Positions 25,764 to 40,943 of a stretch of DNA of 43,909 bases are shown here, piece by piece (position 1 is the stretch's first letter; every line of letters begins with the position of its first letter). Made by a program: the position numbers and the translations under genes. Origin of the DNA: Cyanosarcina radialis HA8281-LM2 (GTDB lineage Bacteria > Cyanobacteriota > Cyanobacteriia > Cyanobacteriales > CCAP-1448); the NCBI GenBank assembly GCA_019359615.1, contig JAHHHA010000047.1, positions 1 to 43,909 on the forward strand, read 5' to 3'. Below the pieces are notes generated by a model. That model saw only the letters and a list, made by a program, of their open reading frames with translations, was not told the DNA's origin and made no database searches.

Positions 25764-28100
25764 CTACCCGATCGGCAACCAAACGCTAAACTTAGTATGC
25801 CCAGGTTGGCTGGCAACTGTAATTTCACCATGATGTTTTTCAATAATTTTACGGACGATATCTAACCCCAGCCCGCTGCCTTCACCTAGTGGTTTAGTGG
25901 TGAAAAATGGCTCAAAAATGCGCTCTTGGATTTCTGGAGGAATGCCGCTGCCAGAGTCGGTGATTTCAACTGCTACACCGCTATCTTTTTGAGAGATCGC
26001 GATCGCTAATTCCCCGCGATAGCTCATTGCCTGAATCGCGTTGTTGATTAAATTCGCCCAGACTTGAATTAGTTCGTCGGGATAGCAAGAAATTGGCGGT
26101 ACGTCGGCATAGGTTTTAGTTACCTCCACTCCTCGCTTAAACTGCCCGTGATAGAGCGATAGTACGGTATCGATTCCATCTGCAATCGAGGCTTTTACCA
26201 TTTCCCCCGTAGGGGTTTGACGGGCATAATTCTTGAGGGCAAAGACAATCCTGGCGGCTCGTTCTACCGAGAGTTTGATATTTTGAGAGTTGTTTTGTAC
26301 GGCTGACAGGGTATAAGCTGCCTGCACGATCGATTTACGTTCGGGAGATTGTAAAAGAGGCATTATTGGGTCTAGATTGGCGTTAATGCCCATTTTGCTC
26401 AAGTTATCTGCCAAGAAATCGGCATTTTCTACTCCACTAGCTGCTAGAGATTGTTTGAGGGTGCGTTTGAGTTGCCGTTCTTCACGGGTAGAAAGAGTAG
26501 TTGGAGATTGCCTAGCAATTTCTAAGAGGGTGAAAAATTCGGCTAACCTTTCTGGCGACAGTTCGTGAAACAGTGGCGGTAACTGCTGCATTGACTGGTT
26601 TAAAGCCACAGAGAGATTGCCAATCGCGCTCTGAATCACTCCTAGAGGAGTATTGATTTCGTGAGCGATTCCAGCTACTAGTTGACCTAAAGCGGCCATT
26701 TTTTCGGCATGGATTAGTTCTTGGGTGCGCCGTTCTACTTGCTCTTCTAGAGTGAGATTGTATTGTGCTAGTTGGGCTTGACTTTCTGATAAGGCAGTAT
26801 TGAGCGATCGCATTTCGTTAAAAGAGGCTTGCAGGCGATCTGACATGGTGTTGAATGACTCTCCTAGTTCCCCTAGTTCGTCGCCCCGCTGCAACTCCAC
26901 CTTTTGCTCTAAATTTCCTGCGGCAATTTCTTTGGCGGCATTGTTGAGGCGGACAATTGGATTCGTTACCCATCTAGCTGTGAGGATGCCGATTAAAACT
27001 GCGATCGCTAAAGCTGTCATGCACAGTAAGATGGTGGTGCGGGTGTTGGCGTGGATTTTTCCCATGAAATCTGATTCGGGTACTACCACCACCACTAACC
27101 AATCCAAACCATATTTATCTCGCCAAGGGGTAATTTCTACAAACTGGCGTTGCACCCACTCACCGCTAGTTTTAAATTTAAATTCAATCTGTTGGCGCTT
27201 TTGAATCTGTTTCAGGTTGCCAAAATTTTGGTTTAAATGTGCTGCTGTAGCTCGAATTAATGGATCTTGACTGTTTAAATAATTGAGCCGTTCGGCTTTA
27301 TCATTTACCAGCTTATACGGTTTTTCGGGATTAGAACTGGCAATTAATAGCCCATCTCGTTCGATAATAAAGACTTTTGCTGAAGGGCTAATATTTAATT
27401 TTCCTAGAAACTGACTGATGTTTGAGAGCAACAAAGACACGTCCAGAACCGCTAGTAGCTGACCTCGATCGTCATACACTGGATAACCAGCATCAATTGC
27501 TACAAATTCTGGAGTTTCATCCCAATTAAAAACTGCCGACCACACGGTTTTTTTAGATTTAATTGCTTTCGGATACCAATCTTCATCTTTGGGATTGTAA
27601 TCGTAAACGTAGACAAGTTTCTTCCGATTTCCCTGACTATCGGTAGAATAGACGTTATTTTTGTATCCAATCCGGGCAGAACGTTCGTCAATTGTCATCC
27701 CTTGACCTTTCAGCCAGGTTCCAGCCCCAGTGAATTGAGTGTTGGGCAGCGCCATCCCAATGTAACTGACATTAAAGATCTGTTGTTGTTTCCAAAAGTA
27801 ACGTCCTGTTGCTTCAGGATCGTTGATTTTCAACTGTCCTAGCTTAATTGCGTTGGCATTAATTTTATTGATTAGATGAGGGGTTGCTAAATAACTATCT
27901 AAATGTTGGTCTACTAAATTACTGGTTTTAGTCATCAACTGATATGCTAAATCGTTGACTGCTTGCTGACCGTTTTCAAAAGATAAATATCCTACTAATC
28001 CTACTGCGCCGACGATTTGCAGCACGAAAGGAGCTATCAAAACCGTGCTTAATTTCGATCTGCCAATCAGTTGATTTAGTTTTTTTTGTAAGCTAGTCAC
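25764..28100 (-). CDS. dCache-HAMP sensor histidine kinase, paralogue A
   Basis: About 778 residues from a GTG at 28100, 10 bases after the response regulator stop. The frame is open to an ATG at 28190, but that would overlap the regulator deeply. Order: transmembrane helix ([21 protein letters not shown]), dCache domain (~45-360, with EDWYPKAIKSKKTVWSAVFNW), second helix, HAMP, coiled coil, HisKA with [14 protein letters not shown], an extended helical region with ERQLKRTLKQSLAASGVE, and HATPase (LINNAIQAM, DSGSGIPPE, TTKPLGEGSGLGL). It lacks a receiver, so its partner should be the adjacent regulator at 28111. The nearest paralogue is the kinase at 28607. Confidence 0.88.
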   Translation of the reverse strand: MTSLQKKLNQLIGRSKLSTVLIAPFVLQIVGAVGLVGYLSFENGQQAVNDLAYQLMTKTSNLVDQHLDSYLATPHLINKINANAIKLGQLKINDPEATGRYFWKQQQIFNVSYIGMALPNTQFTGAGTWLKGQGMTIDERSARIGYKNNVYSTDSQGNRKKLVYVYDYNPKDEDWYPKAIKSKKTVWSAVFNWDETPEFVAIDAGYPVYDDRGQLLAVLDVSLLLSNISQFLGKLNISPSAKVFIIERDGLLIASSNPEKPYKLVNDKAERLNYLNSQDPLIRATAAHLNQNFGNLKQIQKRQQIEFKFKTSGEWVQRQFVEITPWRDKYGLDWLVVVVVPESDFMGKIHANTRTTILLCMTALAIAVLIGILTARWVTNPIVRLNNAAKEIAAGNLEQKVELQRGDELGELGESFNTMSDRLQASFNEMRSLNTALSESQAQLAQYNLTLEEQVERRTQELIHAEKMAALGQLVAGIAHEINTPLGVIQSAIGNLSVALNQSMQQLPPLFHELSPERLAEFFTLLEIARQSPTTLSTREERQLKRTLKQSLAASGVENADFLADNLSKMGINANLDPIMPLLQSPERKSIVQAAYTLSAVQNNSQNIKLSVERAARIVFALKNYARQTPTGEMVKASIADGIDTVLSLYHGQFKRGVEVTKTYADVPPISCYPDELIQVWANLINNAIQAMSYRGELAIAISQKDSGVAVEITDSGSGIPPEIQERIFEPFFTTKPLGEGSGLGLDIVRKIIEKHHGEITVASQPGHTKFSVWLPIG

Positions 28101-28110
28101 GACAATTGAG

Positions 28111-28509
28111 CTATATATTGAGTTTTTTGAAACCAGATTCAATGGTAGATAACAACATTTCCTCAGTCCACGGTTTGGCAATATAAGCATGGAGATCGGC
28201 CTCGACGCGCGTTCGTTCGATCGCCTCTAGATCTGCCTGCCCCGTCAACATAATAGTGACGGTATCTGGAAATTGTTGGTGGACTGCAATTAAAAATTCA
28301 TCTCCTTTAACTCCCGGCATCAGCCAGTCAGAAATAACGATGATAATTTTAACTTCTTCTTCGGATAGTTCTTCGATAATTTCCCAGGCCTCTTCTACGC
28401 TTTCAGCAATTTCGTAGAGATAGCGATCGCCAAAACGATTGCCTATTTGTTCTCGCAGACTTCGTAAAACTGTTGGTTCGTCATCGACGCATAAAATCGC
28501 CTGTTTCAT
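28111..28509 (-). CDS. Single-domain response regulator (KPW type), paralogue 2
   Basis: 132 residues. Receiver with CVDDEP, Asp61 in VISDWLMPGVKGDEFL, LTGQAD and IAKPWTEE. No output domain. It lies immediately upstream of dCache kinase A on the same strand, forming a regulator-kinase unit that is repeated once more upstream. Most likely a phosphate shuttle to or from the receiver-containing proteins further down the cluster. Confidence 0.9.
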   Translation of the reverse strand: MKQAILCVDDEPTVLRSLREQIGNRFGDRYLYEIAESVEEAWEIIEELSEEEVKIIIVISDWLMPGVKGDEFLIAVHQQFPDTVTIMLTGQADLEAIERTRVEADLHAYIAKPWTEEMLLSTIESGFKKLNI

Positions 28510-28580
28510 CGCAAACTTACTTTTAGTTGGATAGAATATTATACCGTTTTAATGCGATCGTCATAGATTTGAATGGCTGG

Positions 28581-28603
28581 GAGACGTGCCAGGATACGTC
28601 TCT
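28581..28603. repeat. Palindromic interspersed repeat (GAGACGT...ACGTCTC)
   Basis: GAGACGT and ACGTCTC arms around GCCAGGAT in the spacer between regulator paralogue 2 and the next kinase. It is the same repeat family as the palindrome at 23720-23740. Confidence 0.6.
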
Positions 28604-28606
28604 ACA

Positions 28607-30931
28607 TTAGTCTATTGGTAGCAAAACTATAAATTTAGTACGTCCGGGTTGACTTTCTAATTTAATTTTTCCGCCATGTTTATTAACAATCTGCCGGACG
28701 ATATCTAGTCCTAATCCAGTCCCCTCTCCCGGCGGCTTAGTAGTGAAAAATGGCTCAAAGATTTTCTCTTGATGTTCTAAGGGAATCCCGCAACCAGAAT
28801 CGGTAATTTCTACGACAACATGACGCTCTTTAACAAAAACAGCGATCGCTAATTCCCCTTGATAATCCATCGCCTGAATGGCATTATGAATGAGATTAGT
28901 CCACACTTGAGTTAGTTCTTCAGGATAGCAAAGAATTGGCGGCACGTCGGCATAAGATTTAGTTACTTCAACCCCTCGTTTCAATTGATTGTGATATAGG
29001 GTTAATACCGTCTCAATTCCATCGGCGATCGATGCCTTAACTTTACTAGCGGTTTGCTCTTGTCGTGCATAGTTTTTGAGAGCAAACACGATTTTGGCTG
29101 CTCTTCCCACAGCCAACCGAGTTGTTTGGTTACTTCGGTGCATGACAAATAAACTGTAAGCTGTTTCTAGAATTGATGTATTATTCTTAGACTGCAAAAT
29201 TGGCATCAACTCATCTGTTAATGTTATCAATCCCATTTTGCTTAAGGTATCGGCTATTATGGTCGTATTTTCAATATTTTTAGATTCTAAAGTTTGTTTC
29301 AAATTGCGTTTCAATTGTCGCTCTTCTTTAGAAGAAAGAATTTCCTGAGTTTTGGGAATAGTTTCTAACAGTACCATGAATCCTTTTAATTCGTCTGGTG
29401 TCATTTGCAGCAATAGCTGTGGCAAACGGGACATCGAGCGCTCGAAAGCCGCAGAAATGTTCTCGCTAGCAGCTTGAATTGCCCCTAAAGGAGTATTGAT
29501 TTCGTGAGCTACGCCTGCTACCAATTGACCCAAAACAGCCAACTTTTCAGATTTAATTAGTTCTTGAGTGCGCTGCCGAACTCGCTCTTCTAACGTGCGA
29601 TTGTAATCTGCTAGTTGTTGTTCTCGTTCGGCTAAAGTAGTATTGAGAGCTTTCAGTTCTTCAAATGCGAATTGCAATTTAGTCGCCATAGTATTAAATG
29701 ACTGCGCCAATTCTCCAAATTCATCTTGGCGATTAACTACCACATTTTGGTTAAGATTTCCAATAGCAATTTCTTTAGCTGCTGCGTTTAGACGGACTAA
29801 CGGTTGTGTTACCCAACGAGCCGTCAACAAACCAATTAAAATCGACAAACTCAGAGCTAGCAAACAAAGTAAAATCGTGATATAAGTATTAACATTAATT
29901 TCTGCAATAAATTCAGTTTCTGGAATAATTCCTACGACCAACCAATCTAAATTATCTTGACTTTTTAAAGGTTTAACCTGAGCAAACACTCGTTGACCTT
30001 GATACTCAAAAGTAATTAGCGATCGCTCTTTGATTTTTGATAAACTGCCAAACTTTTGACGTATTGCCTCGGCTGCCGCTCTAATTAGCGGGTTACTACT
30101 ATTATCTATGTGCTGTCGGCTTGTCCCTCTGCTAGGATTAATGGTTGGCGAGTCAGAAGTAGAAGCCACCACCATACCATTTCTCTCAACGATCGATATT
30201 TCTCCTGAATCACCGATCTCCAAGTTTCCGAGAAACTGAGTCAGTTCTTCTAGATCGATTTCGCTATTGAGAACTCCGATTAACTCTTTAGTGTCAGAAT
30301 AAATTGGTATCACCGAGCTAAACTCAAGTTCAGACTCGCTAACTGATAAAAACAGAGGACTCCAAGTATGACTTTTAGCAGCAACCGCAGCTTTGTACCA
30401 AGGACGCAAACGAGGATCGTAGAGGACTTTACCAAGTAATTTTATTCGTTGGCACTGAGGATTTATTTGATAAACTTGACGATATTTTCCAGTCGAACGA
30501 TCTTTAATTTTAAGAATAATTTTGTCCTTTCCTTCCTTGTCATCAATACTGATTAGTTCTCCCTTGCTATTGCCAAAAGCTATATGTTCGGTTAAGTCTT
30601 CTTCCAAAACTATTTGCAAGAAATAGCATTGTAATTGAGACAAGTTATTTAAATCTAGATTTTTAGTTTTTACCGCTGCTAAAATCTGGCGTTGAACCGC
30701 TTCTGGCTTAGCTAATAAATCTTCCACTCGGTGTTCGATGCCATCTTCAGCTTGAGAAATTAATTGATTTACTAAGTTTTCCACCGATCGCCGACCGTTT
30801 TGAAAGGAAAAATAGCCCACCAATCCGACTGCACCAACAATTTGTAGCACAAAAGGAACGGTCAACAAGGTTTGCAATCTCGTTTTGGCAGCAAGCTTAG
30901 CAATTTTTTGAGAAAGAGATGAAATAATCAT
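28607..30931 (-). CDS. dCache-HAMP sensor histidine kinase, paralogue B
   Basis: 774 residues from the ATG at 30931; the frame extends 14 codons further through repeat sequence. Order as in paralogue A: first helix ([20 protein letters not shown]), dCache (~50-350, with [19 protein letters not shown] and [20 protein letters not shown]), second helix, HAMP, coiled coil, HisKA with [14 protein letters not shown], the same extended helical region ([18 protein letters not shown]), and HATPase ([31 protein letters not shown]). Its sensor has diverged more from the other two than its kinase core has, so it may read a different ligand. The RPWY in the distal dCache module resembles ligand-contact positions of amino-acid dCache sensors, a weak hint only. 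Confidence 0.9.
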
Positions 30932-30959
30932 TGAAAATAGGGTATGGGGCATAGGGGAC

Positions 30960-30995
30960 AAGTCAAAAGTCAAAAGTCAAAAGTCAAAAGTCAAG
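30960..30995. repeat. Heptamer tandem repeat (AGTCAAA)
   Basis: Five near-perfect AGTCAAA units between the regulator at 31087 and the kinase downstream of it. Confidence 0.8.
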
Positions 30996-31086
30996 AATTC
31001 TCCCTTGCTCTTTTGCTACACCCTTTTTATAATCCTGAAGCTCCTCTACTACCTAAGTGAATAGGACCAGATGCTTTACAGCTAAC

Positions 31087-31488
31087 TTATGAATTTAACT
31101 TTTCTAAACCAGATCTAATAGTATCCATGAGAGTAGTTTCATCCCATGGTTTAGCAATATAAGCGTGTAGATTAGCAAATTGGTAAGTTCTTTCAATTGC
31201 TTCTCGATCGGCTTGTCCGGTTAACATCACAGTGACAACATTGGGGAAGCGATCGTGAACCTGAATTAAAAATTCATCGCCTTTGGTTCCAGGCATTAAC
31301 CAATCAGAGACGATCGCGATAATTTTAACTCCATCTTCAGCCAAATCCTCGATTACTTCCCAGGCCTCATCGGCACTCTCAGCGACTTCGTATACAAAGC
31401 GATCGCCAAAATTTCTGGTAATCTGATCTCGCAAATTCCAGAGAACAATTTGTTCGTCATCAACACATAAAATTGCTTGACTTGACAT
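31087..31488 (-). CDS. Single-domain response regulator (KPW type), paralogue 3
   Basis: 133 residues. Receiver with CVDDEQ, Asp62 in VSDWLMPGTKGDEFL, LTGQAD and IAKPWDET. Nearly the same sequence pattern as paralogues 1 and 2. First gene of the minus-strand signalling island, 155 bases upstream of dCache kinase B; the spacer is filled by heptamer repeats and a short unassigned stretch. Confidence 0.9.
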   Translation of the reverse strand: MSSQAILCVDDEQIVLWNLRDQITRNFGDRFVYEVAESADEAWEVIEDLAEDGVKIIAIVSDWLMPGTKGDEFLIQVHDRFPNVVTVMLTGQADREAIERTYQFANLHAYIAKPWDETTLMDTIRSGLEKLNS

Positions 31489-32897: not shown

Positions 32898-34313
32898 TTA
32901 CGGTGCGCTCTTGCGTCCGTATTTTTCTTTGATGCGCTTCACCTGGGCTTGCAACTTTGCCCCTTTTGAGGGATTAACCATCGCCACAAAATTAGCAAAC
33001 CCTTGAATGGAAGCGATCGCATCGGTAGAATTTCCCCAGTGTTTGCCTTCAGGGCCGTCTTTTTCCATTTGATACAGCGTGGCGCGGAAGCGTTTTAACG
33101 TCTCTTTAGCAATATTGGGCTGAGAGTTAACCACTACACCAGTGACTTCCTGCTGGCGTTGTTTTCGCATGATTCGGGTTTTCTCAGCGTTGATCGTAAA
33201 TCCTTCGTGAGCCACGATCGATTCGGTACGCCTTAAAATCCTACAGATGTGGCGCAGATTTTCCCCGGAAGCCGAGAAAGTTAGATCGTCAGCGTAGCGA
33301 GTGTAAGTAAATCCGAATCCCGTTGCCATCCCCATTAGGCGGCGATCCAAACGGCGGCATAACAGATTAGAAATTGCTGGGCTGGCTGGCGAACCTTGGG
33401 GTAAATGGCGATTTCCTATGGCTACACAGTAAATTTGCCCGTCGAGTTGTACTTCCTCGATTTCTGGTTGGGTGCAAAGCAAAGCCAAAATGGTGGCGGT
33501 GGCTTCAGCATAACCAAAGGAGCGAAACAGCCCCTTGACTCGCTGGTAAGAAATCGAAGGAAAGAAATCTTTGAGATCGAAATTAACGATCGCTTCTGCA
33601 CCCACATGAGGTCTGGCATTACTGACGATCGATCGAGTCCGTCTGAATCCATGCACGGCATCGTGCAGTTCGATCTTACTCAGAATGCGATCGAGTATCC
33701 CATGTTGTACCTTTTTTAGCCTGGGCATCGGAGCCGAAATCAGTCGTTCTCCGCCCGTTTTTTTGGGAATTTTGAATCGAATGTAGTGAGAGATCTTCGC
33801 CGCTGGCCGAGAAAAAGCCAGAAAGCGTAATTCTCCCACGCTAACCCCCATCGCTGCTGCCATCTGTTCTACAGTTTCCCATGCGGGCAAACCATAGCTT
33901 TGCAACCTTTCTCTATTCGCTTCTGTCTGGTTGAGTCCTCCAGATACCCCTTCACCCAGAAATAGAATTTCCTGCTGCTTTCTTTGCTGCCAAGCTGCCG
34001 CCCTCTCTTGGCGTTCCCGTTCTCGACGTTCCTTAGTTTCCTGCTGCTTGCGCCGCGATTCGGCCAGCCTTTCTTTGAGCATTTGCTTCCGCAACGCCTG
34101 TTCGTTATGCAGGTTGCGGTTTTGATATCGCAGTTGGTTCAGTTCTCGCTGAATTTCACCCCGCTGGCGAATTTCATCGGCTGGATCTTCAGGCATTTCG
34201 CCTTGGGCGGGCCAAAATCCATACCGAATCATCTCTTCCAAGATGAATTCTTCTCTACCAACTTGGCGGATGCGATCGTATAGTTCTTGACGGGTGCGGG
34301 GCTGGTCGGTCAT
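32898..34313 (-). CDS. Retron-type reverse transcriptase with long N-terminal extension
   Basis: 471 residues from the ATG at 34313; 20 further codons upstream only translate a proline/leucine-rich repeat. The first ~120 residues are a charged, probably coiled-coil extension (RKQQETKERRERERQERAAA). They are followed by a LGEGVSGGL / AMGVSVGELRFLAFSR linker seen in myxobacterial retron enzymes such as Mx162. The polymerase carries the retron-specific NAxxH (NARPH, 232-236), motif A VNFDLKDFFPSI (Asp246), LPQGSPASPAISNLLC, YADD at 340-343 and the VTG motif at 390-392 (VTGVVVN). Family knowledge predicts synthesis of a branched RNA-DNA from an adjacent msr-msd RNA. None was recognised. It lies between def and ribD on the same strand. 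Confidence 0.88.
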   Translation of the reverse strand: MTDQPRTRQELYDRIRQVGREEFILEEMIRYGFWPAQGEMPEDPADEIRQRGEIQRELNQLRYQNRNLHNEQALRKQMLKERLAESRRKQQETKERRERERQERAAAWQQRKQQEILFLGEGVSGGLNQTEANRERLQSYGLPAWETVEQMAAAMGVSVGELRFLAFSRPAAKISHYIRFKIPKKTGGERLISAPMPRLKKVQHGILDRILSKIELHDAVHGFRRTRSIVSNARPHVGAEAIVNFDLKDFFPSISYQRVKGLFRSFGYAEATATILALLCTQPEIEEVQLDGQIYCVAIGNRHLPQGSPASPAISNLLCRRLDRRLMGMATGFGFTYTRYADDLTFSASGENLRHICRILRRTESIVAHEGFTINAEKTRIMRKQRQQEVTGVVVNSQPNIAKETLKRFRATLYQMEKDGPEGKHWGNSTDAIASIQGFANFVAMVNPSKGAKLQAQVKRIKEKYGRKSAP

Positions 34314-34326
34314 AGGGTTGAGGGGG

Positions 34327-34405
34327 AGAGGGAGCAGGGGAGGCAGGGGAGGCAGGGGGAGCAGGGGAAGCAATGGAGGCAGGGGAAGTAGGGGAGGACA
34401 AGGAA
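34327..34405 (+). repeat. G-rich tandem repeat with quadruplex potential
   Basis: Repeated GGGGAGGCA/GGGGAAGCA units on the plus strand between the def stop and the reverse transcriptase start. Four or more G4 runs separated by 4-6 bases fit a G-quadruplex pattern. The complementary C-rich form occurs at 35128-35180 on the other side of def. Confidence 0.75.
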
Positions 34406-37889: not shown

Positions 37890-37911
37890 CCTTCTGGCGC
37901 TCCCTCGTCTA

Positions 37912-37950
37912 CCGTCTGCTGTTGCTAAAATCTAGCTAAGTAGCTCGTTT
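37912..37950 (+). promoter_or_regulatory. 39-bp duplicated upstream element, copy 1
   Basis: The segment containing GTTGCTAAAATCTAGCTAAG and TAGCTCGTTT is repeated with one mismatch at 38862-38900 upstream of ftsH. It lies 35 bases before the start of the triple-domain gene and is a candidate promoter or regulatory site inherited with the gene duplication. Confidence 0.7.
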
Positions 37951-37984
37951 GTGAGTTTCGATTGTTTCAGAGGAAGTTAAAGCA

Positions 37985-38722
37985 GTGAATAAGCAATGGT
38001 TAAGGCCGGATGTTCTGTTAGCCATAGTTGTTATCCCCTTAGCGATCGCCTGTTCCTCGCAGCAAGCTCTAACTCAAAAAGGATACTTGAGGTACGACGA
38101 ATTCATCAAGCAAGTCGAAACCGGAGAGGTTACTAAAGTTATTCTAAATAGCGATCGCACTCAGGCACGGGTAAAAACCAACAACGGCGAGTATCGGGTT
38201 AACTTGCCCAACGACCCAGGTTTAATGGAGATCTTAACTAAGGCCAAAGGTTTAGATATTGTAGTCGAGCCTTCTGGTGACAAAGACCTAACTCAAGAAA
38301 GATACTTGAGCTACAACGAATTCATCAAGCAAGTCAAAAACGGAGAAGTTACTAAAGTTATTCTCAATAGCGATCGCACCCAGGCAAAGGTGCAAACCAG
38401 AAGTGGCTGGTATCGAGTTAACTTACCCAACGACCCAAATCTGCTTGAAATCTTAACGGCTAAAGATGTAGATATTGCGGTCGAGCCTTCTGGCGACAAA
38501 GAGCTAACACCAGAACGATCCTTGAGCTACGACAAATTCATCAAGCAAGTCAAAAACGGGGAAGTTACTAAAGTCATACTGAATAGCGATCGCACTCAGG
38601 CAAGGGCGCAAACCCAAAGCGGCAGATATCGAGTTAACTTACCCAACGACCCCAATCTGCTTGAAATCTTAACAGCTAAAGATGTAGATATTGCGATCGA
38701 TTCCTCTCTTGAGAGCAATTAA
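37985..38722 (+). CDS. Protein of three tandem FtsH lumenal (FtsH_ext) domains, without ATPase or protease
   Basis: 245 residues from a GTG with AGGAAG 8 bases upstream. Residues 1-22 (MNKQW...LLAIVVIPLAIAC) closely match the first membrane helix of the neighbouring FtsH (MNKRW...[13 protein letters not shown]). Here the stretch ends in a cysteine at 23 that may serve as a lipoprotein lipidation site (weak lipobox LAIAC). Three units of ~72 residues follow (29-101, 102-173, 174-245). Each carries (Y/S)L-Y--FIKQV--GEVTKVIL, NSDRTQA and YRVNLPNDP, then EILT-----DI. This is the extracytoplasmic domain of FtsH. The second FtsH helix, AAA+ module and zinc protease are all absent. Likely a membrane-anchored lumenal or periplasmic protein that binds FtsH or its substrates; function unknown. 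Confidence 0.88.
   Translation: MNKQWLRPDVLLAIVVIPLAIACSSQQALTQKGYLRYDEFIKQVETGEVTKVILNSDRTQARVKTNNGEYRVNLPNDPGLMEILTKAKGLDIVVEPSGDKDLTQERYLSYNEFIKQVKNGEVTKVILNSDRTQAKVQTRSGWYRVNLPNDPNLLEILTAKDVDIAVEPSGDKELTPERSLSYDKFIKQVKNGEVTKVILNSDRTQARAQTQSGRYRVNLPNDPNLLEILTAKDVDIAIDSSLESN
38288..38722 (+). repeat. Near-identical coding repeats 2 and 3 of the triple-domain gene
   Basis: Units at 38288-38503 and 38504-38722 share long identical DNA blocks, for example TATCGAGTTAACTTACCCAA and CTAAAGATGTAGATATTGCG. The last internal duplication therefore appears more recent than the split from unit 1 (38069-38287) and from ftsH. Confidence 0.85.
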
Positions 38723-39086
38723 TTACCTCTCTGCTCTTTAGCACGGGACTTATGCAATTACGTTTGGGTTAGTTGGGTTTCCTGCTGTCAACCCAACCTA
38801 CGGTTATTGCACTGGCTATGCCTCTTCAACTCCGAATTCCGAACTCATGCCCGATCGTCCGCCGTCTGGTGTTGCTAAAATCTAGCTAAGTAGCTCGTTT
38901 CTGGGTGGCATTCGCTGAAGTAAGTTGAGAAAATTCTGAGAGATGTTAACATAAGTTAACATAAGTTAATACAAGCTCAATTTAATAGCACCCCATAACT
39001 GGCGGCGATTAAAGCCAGCCCCCGGTAGTTAGCGCTCTCTCTTTTGCTGACTGCCAACATTCCAAAGACTAGGAGGAACCAAACAA
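38723..39086. other. 364-bp spacer upstream of ftsH
   Basis: No gene seen. It holds the TTGGGTTAGTTGGGTTTC...CAACCCAACCTACGG hairpin repeat (38764-38802), GAACTCC-type heptamers (38826-38847), the duplicated 39-bp element (38862-38900), and three tandem GTTAACATAA-like units at 38945-38972 that could be an operator. A strong AGGAGGA at 39071-39077 is the ftsH ribosome binding site. Confidence 0.6.
38862..38900 (+). promoter_or_regulatory. 39-bp duplicated upstream element, copy 2
   Basis: Second copy of the element at 37912-37950, one mismatch in 39 bases. It lies 187 bases before the ftsH GTG. Sequence similarity between the two upstream regions fades after the element. Confidence 0.7.
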
Positions 39087-40943
39087 GTGAATAAGCGGTG
39101 GAGAAATGTCGGGCTGTACGCACTGTTAGCTATAGTTGTCATCGCCTTAGCAACCACATTTTTCGAGAAAGATCCAGCGCAGCAGAAAGGATACTTGAGA
39201 TACGACGAGTTCATCAAAAAAGTTGAAGACGGACAAGTCAGTCGAGTCATCCTCAGCAGCGATCGCACGAAGGCAGACGTGCAAACCAATGGCGGCAAGT
39301 ATCAGGTCAACTTGCCCAACGATCCAGGTTTGATCGATATCCTAACTATGGACAAAAATAAAAAGTCCAGAGATTTAGATATTGTCGTCAATCGTCCCAG
39401 CGACGATGGATTCTTGCTAAAGGCAGCCAGTACCTTGGCGTTACCGATTTTACTCTTGGTAGGATTGTTCTTTTTACTGCGCCGCGCTCAGAGCGGTCCG
39501 GGTTCTCAAGCAATGAACTTCGGCAAGTCGAAAGCTAGAGTGCAAATGGAACCTCAAACTCAAGTGACCTTCGGCGACGTAGCTGGGATCGATCGAGCCA
39601 AGTTGGAACTAACAGAAGTAGTAGACTTCCTCAAAAATGCCGATCGCTTTACCGCTGTCGGTGCCAAAATTCCCAAAGGCGTGTTGTTAGTCGGCCCTCC
39701 TGGAACTGGGAAAACCCTATTAGCTAGAGCCGTAGCTGGCGAGGCAGGCGTGCCCTTCTTCTCGATTTCTGGTTCCGAGTTCGTAGAAATGTTCGTTGGG
39801 GTCGGGGCATCAAGGGTGCGCGACTTATTCGAGCAAGCCAAAACCCACGCTCCTTGTATCGTCTTCATCGATGAAATCGATGCTGTCGGTCGCCAGCGGG
39901 GTGCTGGTTTGGGCGGCGGTAACGACGAACGGGAACAAACCCTCAACCAATTGCTGACCGAAATGGACGGGTTCGAGGGCAACACTGGAATTATCGTCAT
40001 TGCTGCTACCAACCGCCCAGACGTGTTAGATGCCGCCTTGTTGCGTCCCGGTCGATTCGATCGCCAAGTAGTAGTAGATCGTCCCGACTACGCCGGACGG
40101 TTAGAAATCCTGAGAGTTCACGCTCGCGGCAAAACTATCGGTAAGGATGTCGATCTAGAAAAGATTGCCCGCCGTACCCCCGGTTTTACTGGTGCCGATC
40201 TATCCAACCTGTTGAACGAAGGGGCAATTTTAGCCGCCAGACGCAATCTGACGGAAATCTCCATGGATGAAATTAACGATGCGATCGATCGCGTCTTAGC
40301 TGGCCCCGAAAAGAAAGACCGCGTGATGAGCGAAAAGCGCAAAACTCTGGTTGCTTATCATGAAGCTGGTCACGCCCTGGTGGGAGCGTTGATGCCAGAT
40401 TACGACCCCGTGCAAAAAATCAGCATCATCCCGCGCGGTCGGGCTGGGGGGTTAACTTGGTTCACGCCCAGCGAAGATCGTTTAGATTCCGGGCTTTACA
40501 GCCGTTCCTACCTGCAAAACCAGATGGCAGTAGCTTTAGGCGGTCGCGTGGCTGAAGAAATCATCTTTGGCGATGAAGAAGTCACCACGGGAGCCTCAAA
40601 CGACCTGCAACAGGTAGCGCGGGTCGCCAGACAGATGATCATGCGATTTGGGATGAGCGATCGCTTAGGGCAAGTAGCGTTAGGTCGCCAGCAAGGTAAT
40701 ATGTTCTTGGGACGCGATATCGCCGCCGAGCGCGATTTCTCAGAAGAAACTGCGGCCACGATCGACGATGAAGTTCGCAACCTCGTAGATCGGGCTTACC
40801 GTCGCGCCAAAGAAGTGTTAGTCAACAACAAACACATCCTCGATCGACTAGCCCAAATGTTAATCGAGAAGGAAACTGTAGACGCGGAAGAACTGCAAGA
40901 GTTGTTAGATAATAACGACGTGAAAATGGCAGCGATCGCGTAA
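39087..40943 (+). CDS. ftsH: ATP-dependent zinc metalloprotease FtsH (thylakoid/plasma-membrane type)
   Basis: 618 residues from GTG with AGGAGGA 9 bases upstream. First membrane helix (~10-26), a lumenal domain (~35-102) homologous to the three units of the upstream gene, and a second helix ([14 protein letters not shown], ~118-131). The AAA+ module has Walker A GPPGTGKT (203-210), Walker B IVFIDEID (258-265) and RPGRFDRQ. The protease has the zinc motif HEAGH (His425, Glu426, His429). FtsH hexamers degrade damaged membrane proteins such as photosystem II D1. The start [18 protein letters not shown] resembles the cyanobacterial FtsH3 type, which partners with other FtsH subunits; this sub-assignment is from memory and less certain. 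Confidence 0.95.

Follow-up and report, generated by a model that had tools for sequence, protein, structure and literature searches.

The window, a 43,909-nt stretch of DNA from Cyanosarcina radialis HA8281-LM2, carries a gene for a short protein that is made of a probable lipoprotein signal and three copies of the FtsH ectodomain, and that lies 364 bp upstream of a full-length ftsH3. We put at about one in two the probability that this triple protein, as a lumenal or periplasmic lipoprotein, works like a microProtein, either as a decoy for FtsH3-containing complexes or their partners or as a modulator of them. The origin of the gene, its architecture, purifying selection, the fit to a lipobox and the recurrence of the design are the supported parts of this reading. 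FtsH is a centrally important membrane protease, and the role of its outer domain is less clear. If the reading is true, copies of its own domain could act as a control on the protease from the opposite face of the membrane, and a natural, selected protein that consists of lipid-anchored, multiplied ectodomains and nothing more would offer a means of finding out what the FtsH outer ring binds.

Table 1. Positions, within the window, of the triple-ectodomain gene, its parts, its neighbour and the repeated upstream block.
Feature	Position	Strand	Basis
52-nt block, copy 1, upstream of the triple gene (31-nt core 37920-37950)	37905..37956	+	Repeat search
Shine-Dalgarno-like GAGGAAG	37970..37976	+	Reading by eye
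Stand-alone triple FtsH_ext protein, 245 aa, GTG start	37985..38722	+	ORF list, Pfam
Signal segment from FtsH3 transmembrane helix 1, apparently ending in a lipobox (AIVVIPLAIA-C23)	37985..38053	+	Alignment, pattern match
FtsH_ext unit 1	38072..38278	+	Pfam, alignment, AlphaFold2
FtsH_ext unit 2	38291..38494	+	Pfam, alignment, AlphaFold2
FtsH_ext unit 3	38507..38710	+	Pfam, alignment, AlphaFold2
52-nt block, copy 2, upstream of ftsH3	38855..38906	+	Repeat search
Full-length FtsH, FtsH3 type, 618 aa (helix 1, ectodomain, helix 2, AAA, M41), parent gene	39087..40943	+	Pfam, tree

The frame is open from its GTG to a TAA along all 245 codons and, by eye, has its own Shine-Dalgarno-like sequence, as the first-pass annotation had said on both counts. 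FtsH_ext (PF06480) matched the protein as three stretches (whole-protein E 1.3e-22), and in a search of the genome itself the three units scored 35.3, 28.5 and 27.8 bits, all above the curated cut-off of 25.5; these scores, and the FtsH N-domains that head the structural matches below, place the units in PF06480. Neither AAA nor M41 was among the Pfam matches of the protein. Against the FtsH protease model TIGR01241 it scored 25.1 where the cut-off is 600, and no NCBIfam model reached its own cut-off. The layout proposed earlier, three FtsH ectodomains and nothing else, is thus borne out. Weaker Pfam matches that passed whole-protein cut-offs in this repeated region (S1CSD-TOTE-1, E 4.7e-7; DUF3952, 5.8e-6; MlaD, 6e-6) were discounted as repeat-summed chance matches, far weaker than FtsH_ext.

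At the DNA level the units form a tandem array of 2.9 copies of 216 nt with 85% matches (TRF). The proteins they encode are 76% (units 1 and 2), 68% (1 and 3) and 84% (2 and 3) identical, while DNA identity to unit 2 in the repeat search is 88% for unit 3, 73% for unit 1 and only 62% for ftsH3. These differences rule out an assembly echo of a single copy. AlphaFold2, given a 20-sequence alignment of which the majority covered unit 1 only, predicted three domains with pLDDT mostly above 90 (mean 84.8), separated by about 10 residues between the last strand of one unit and the first of the next; with a pTM of 0.40, this single-chain model gives no confident relative placement of the three. Its top PDB matches (Foldseek) are FtsH periplasmic domains such as 2MUY, 4V0B and 4M8A, the first of which is also matched weakly in sequence by unit 2 alone (E 0.012). 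The PDB search further returned structures of FtsHi and the Ycf2-FtsHi motor (8XKV, 8XQW and others), and there was no BFVD match at E ≤0.001.

The first 23 residues of the triple protein align with helix 1 of the neighbouring FtsH, but end in IPLAIAC. A Prosite-like lipobox pattern, applied here and to the other N-termini below, matches at LAIA-C23 (Cys codon 38051-38053). By the same pattern the segment has the sequence features of a bacterial lipoprotein, namely N-terminal positive residue(s), a hydrophobic stretch and a lipobox Cys. There is no Cys within the first 45 residues of any of 80 FtsH3 N-terminal pieces (one of which, L099, is a fragment). Since FtsH3 N-termini lack the residue and the triple protein has a lipobox, transmembrane helix 1 seems to have been converted to a lipoprotein signal. 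The earlier description, a membrane anchor or lipoprotein signal derived from FtsH helix 1, agrees with the alignment and can be sharpened to a probable lipobox.

The full-length neighbour, which we take to be FtsH3 by likeness to Synechocystis Slr1604, belongs to a genome with four full-length FtsH frames, and its N-terminal part recovers a Synechocystis salina locus (L065) at 60% identity. In a quick tree of 106 rows and 68 columns, the three units and this ftsH3 form one group (98% SH-aLRT), within which units 2 and 3 are closest to each other (97%); the group kept its 98% after five long or partial rows were dropped. The 52-nt blocks upstream of the two genes are 90% identical and share a 31-nt core at 31 of 31 positions. 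Searched at up to three mismatches, this core occurs at two places in the 6.5-Mb genome, and both are these upstream regions. Synonymous sites of unit 1 and ftsH3, in contrast, are about 50% identical (pS 0.50); the chance of 31/31 is about 5e-10 at an identity of 0.5, uncorrected for having picked the best stretch, and 6e-5 at an identity of 0.73. The perfect core points to a shared element that has been kept, or to late homogenisation. We found no promoter-like match inside the 52-nt block, and upstream of ftsH3 in the sole other genome of the family (G001) the best match to the core is 17/31, where shuffles reach 18. A role for the core as a conserved ftsH3 promoter is unsupported, as only one (L099, 14/31) of 82 upstream regions besides the genome's own two beat its shuffles. 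Because of the shared upstream repeat, the position beside ftsH3 and the 98% tree support, we regard the window form as local: judged from its sequence, the triple gene is a product of local duplication of the ftsH3 5′ end.

This end of ftsH3 seems liable to be partly duplicated in tandem. One genome (G352) has an intact 77-codon ectodomain frame beside ftsH3 that lacks a signal, and another of the same genus (G379) has a split ectodomain copy just upstream of ftsH3 (L138:2400-3350). In Leptolyngbya sp. Prado105, a copy upstream of ftsH3 (L129:2-196) is cut by the contig end and apparently has 12 residues missing; it is the only such copy among 80 named ftsH3 loci, for which at most 6 kb of upstream DNA, and often less, was available. 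As broken copies beside ftsH3 exist, duplication there is not rare, and survival of the copies is not assured.

In the triple gene, nonsynonymous change between units is restrained. Nei-Gojobori dN/dS is 0.31 for units 1 and 2 (bootstrap 95% range 0.13-0.70; Fisher p 0.002), 0.31 for units 1 and 3 (0.14-0.63; p 0.0003) and 0.24 for units 2 and 3 (0.11-0.52; p 0.0005), the p values being computed from rounded counts. Ratios of the units to ftsH3 (0.25-0.32) include the ftsH3 branch and are hence less telling. Of the 23 alignment columns with ≥85% conservation across 99 FtsH3 rows, units 1, 2 and 3 keep 21, 21 and 18, and the genome's own FtsH3 keeps 21; at the other 44 columns they equal the FtsH3 majority 9, 8 and 9 times, and the own FtsH3 13 times. 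Purifying selection appears to have kept the triple protein, as read from the paralogous units only, because the triple form is present in one sampled genome and its genus has no second searched genome. The first-pass annotation had held that core residues are conserved in all three units and that the gene is probably not a decaying fragment, and both views stand: the conserved columns are largely retained and the upper limits of dN/dS do not exceed 0.70. It had also proposed measuring dN/dS between units, and the values lie away from 1, though the triple form is that of a single genome.

A search with the triple protein (E ≤1e-14) found the three-copy form in 1 of 388 genomes of the order, its own, and every other row spans at most about one unit. 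A narrow contig scan for relatives of the triple protein returned none and is weak evidence, since it missed FtsH itself as well. The 388 distinct genomes were also scanned with an ectodomain profile (A1) in five batches (80, 80, 80, 80 and 68 genomes; E limit 1e-5 in the first and 1e-7 in the other four), with 16 genomes giving no profile match at all (0, 1, 7, 4 and 4 per batch), so that absence is uninformative there. Three more genomes, from two other families, encode single-ectodomain lipoproteins: L143 in G219 (95 aa, lipobox LTLSGC), L146 in G089 and L147 in G106 (118 aa each, lipoboxes GTSAC and IASAC, respectively). Each exceeds the FtsH_ext cut-off and, like the triple protein, has a lipobox. 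These single-copy forms, which go beyond what the first-pass annotation described, are all away from ftsH3: L143 and L146 lie about 4.6 Mb and 0.8 Mb from ftsH3 on the same contig, and L147 is on a different contig. The gene neighbours of L146 and L147 differ, as far as the short G106 contig reaches. Within genus g52, two of nine scanned genomes have the lipoprotein, and the remaining seven include three that lacked any match at all.

The L146 and L147 ectodomains have a dN/dS of 0.29 at a dS of 0.38 (Fisher p 0.0008), and the whole lipoprotein 0.50 (0.28-0.89); the signal segment is free (1.4), yet its Cys is kept. Over the first 125 codons of ftsH3, the same two genomes show a dN of 0 at a closely similar dS of 0.39, and the whole gene has a dN/dS of 0.011. 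Selection therefore appears to hold the ectodomain in a second lineage as well, far more loosely than it holds ftsH3. In the tree, L146 and L147 fall beside the ftsH3 of their own genomes (88-89%), and L143 shares an unresolved cluster with rows from its family. AU tests on the 68 columns did not reject a single origin of all lipoprotein forms (p 0.117), nor a union of the window units with L146 and L147 (p 0.332) or with L143 (p 0.254), and joining L143 to L146 and L147 fits like the free tree (p 0.567). The lipoprotein forms probably had at least two origins, perhaps three.

None of the following short frames was accepted as a protein standing alone. L155 (G370) repeats one stretch around an N; L145, L148 and L041 extend to the ends of their contigs; in L040, L042, L044 and L045 an FtsH gene is divided between two frames; L039 is what is left of an FtsH that has lost its middle; and L150 contains an unread base. 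The tally leaves out short-frame rows such as G011, G015:C3, G039:C7, G049, G080:C104, G198, G202:C147, G218, G241, G324, G376 and G300:C61 (TGA), and L043, L046, L048 and L049 were viewed briefly in the ORF list only. A phage origin was dismissed, with unit 2 matching none of 50,697 phage records at E ≤1, as was a plasmid origin, with the triple protein unmatched in the plasmid set at 1e-5; L143 gave one weak plasmid match (E 0.2, a Subdoligranulum plasmid). Profile A1, scanned with a single peptide pattern, found nothing in viral contigs.

Other arrangements of the domain were seen on the way. L142:2955-4400 (G196:C3) is a 481-aa FtsH3-like frame with two tandem ectodomains and an AAA part that ends early, and is probably degenerating. 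L144:3459-3977 (G232:C180) is a diverged 172-aa frame with FtsH3 helix 1, ectodomain and helix 2 only, in a genome that has a full ftsH3 elsewhere. L149:1969-3306 (G320:C1) encodes 446 aa in which a Ser/Thr protein kinase (4-Cys prefix, Pkinase) is joined to FtsH3 helix 1, ectodomain and helix 2 (PF06480 E 2.1e-12, no AAA or M41), a possible kinase sensor. L140:2617-3168 (G068:C26; 183 aa) combines a signal or helix with an FtsH_ext-like domain that narrowly misses the Pfam cut-off (24.6 vs. 25.5), a second helix and, by eye, a probable coiled tail, with no AAA. Elsewhere in the window, again by eye, a 491-aa frame on the minus strand (32898-34373) resembles a reverse transcriptase with a YADD motif, and a pair of similar frames of about 800 aa that resemble sensor kinases, each with a small response-regulator-like frame before it (25764-31488, minus strand), looks like a tandem duplication.

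Published work shows what such a protein might meet. The periplasmic domain of E. coli FtsH is reported to form a C6 ring that touches HflK (PMC13097134; PMC12048511), with contacts between HflK Arg191 and FtsH residues 62-64 (PMC12048511). In Synechocystis, FtsH3 is described as common to the FtsH1/3 and FtsH2/3 complexes, ftsH3 null mutants did not segregate, and the FtsH complexes of cyanobacteria act in photosystem II repair and in iron acclimation (PMC4949578). The preferred reading would begin with a partial tandem duplication of the ftsH3 5′ end that left a stand-alone ectodomain gene, after which helix 1 would have turned into a lipoprotein signal and the ectodomain would have been triplicated. 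The product would be secreted and lipid-anchored on the lumenal or periplasmic face, presenting three FtsH3-type domains, and, by analogy, would have access to the partners that the FtsH ectodomain meets on that face. There it may modulate FtsH3-containing complexes (FtsH1/3, FtsH2/3), in either direction, by competing for or bridging the ligands of the FtsH3 ectodomain ring, whether SPFH/prohibitin-type partners or the ring itself; the triple gene may also be co-regulated with ftsH3. The roles put forward in the first-pass annotation, capping, competing with or seeding FtsH rings or presenting substrates, are likewise hypothetical. The tip that aligns with E. coli residues 62-64 reads NNG, RSG and QSG in units 1 to 3 and NGG in the own FtsH3 (unit 2 by alignment, the rest by eye). 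As this loop differs from unit to unit, binding may be changed or widened relative to FtsH3. More tentatively, it is possible that cyanobacteria evolved lipid-anchored FtsH3-ectodomain proteins as extracytoplasmic microProteins, with probably at least two origins, perhaps three, and each time a helix 1 turned lipobox, to tune an essential protease from the lumen; the window would then hold a multivalent form under shared control with ftsH3.

The varying tip can also be read differently. A secreted lipoprotein could have reused the FtsH3 ectodomain elsewhere, for example to bind misfolded proteins of the lumen or periplasm or some other partner in the envelope, and lost its contact with FtsH; fold and core are kept, but the tip aligned with the HflK-contacting positions differs between units, and the genes for L143, L146 and L147 do stand away from ftsH3. 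The triple gene, however, adjoins ftsH3 and has an upstream block in common with it, and its other neighbours suggest no alternative partner, which leaves this reuse somewhat unlikely. We consider it improbable that partial duplications, recurring at ftsH3, have left this gene as a by-product with no function, whether expressed or silent. Copies do arise there repeatedly and can decay, as the split, apparently partly deleted and signal-less examples illustrate, and the three-copy form is known from one genome of the 388; but dN/dS of 0.24-0.31 between units and 245 open codons weaken this account, as do a lipobox acquired close to where helix 1 ends and constraint on the lipoproteins of a second lineage.

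The number of units invites a structural reading, in which three tethered ectodomains and a second copy of the protein, or three FtsH3 protomers, form or cap a hexameric ring. This would suit a domain reported to form C6 rings (PMC13097134) and the short spacing from last strand to first strand in the AlphaFold2 model. We nevertheless think it very unlikely: at a pTM of 0.40 the model has no defined arrangement, and the lipoproteins elsewhere are single-unit, so that the theme does not require the number three. The modulator reading, at about one in two, accordingly remains the one we prefer.

In the open literature, searched by titles and the beginnings of abstracts and with most subscription journals outside its range, we found no stand-alone FtsH ectodomain protein. 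What is new is a known domain in a layout for which we found no description, with a probable parallel in other cyanobacteria. The units resemble the FtsH N-domain (PF06480; 2MUY, 4V0B, 4M8A) in sequence, predicted fold and conserved core, but unlike FtsH the triple protein has no second helix, AAA or M41, has three copies of the domain and probably replaces two helices with a lipid anchor. FtsHi proteins keep the AAA part and carry the N-domain fold in an assembly that lacks normal FtsH proteolysis. The FtsHi pseudoproteases and the Ycf2-FtsHi motor are thus FtsH relatives with an N-domain like that of the triple protein, which itself has no AAA. Double-AAA FtsH-type proteins, as reported in PMC7159879, differ from it too, as it is ectodomain-only. 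Closest in design are L143, L146 and L147, which consist of a lipobox and an FtsH3-type ectodomain and nothing else, but have one unit and a gene away from ftsH3; they too were absent from the titles and abstract beginnings searched. MicroProteins are described as single-domain proteins that sequester multi-domain ones, and are placed in plants and animals (PMC4807768). Those such as miP1a/b (PMC4807768) are, like the triple protein, short and limited to one domain type of a larger oligomeric parent, whereas the triple protein is bacterial, probably extracytoplasmic, three-copy and a putative sequesterer. By the tree and the upstream repeat, it is related to a larger protein of which only the interaction domain has been kept, as is expected of a microProtein.
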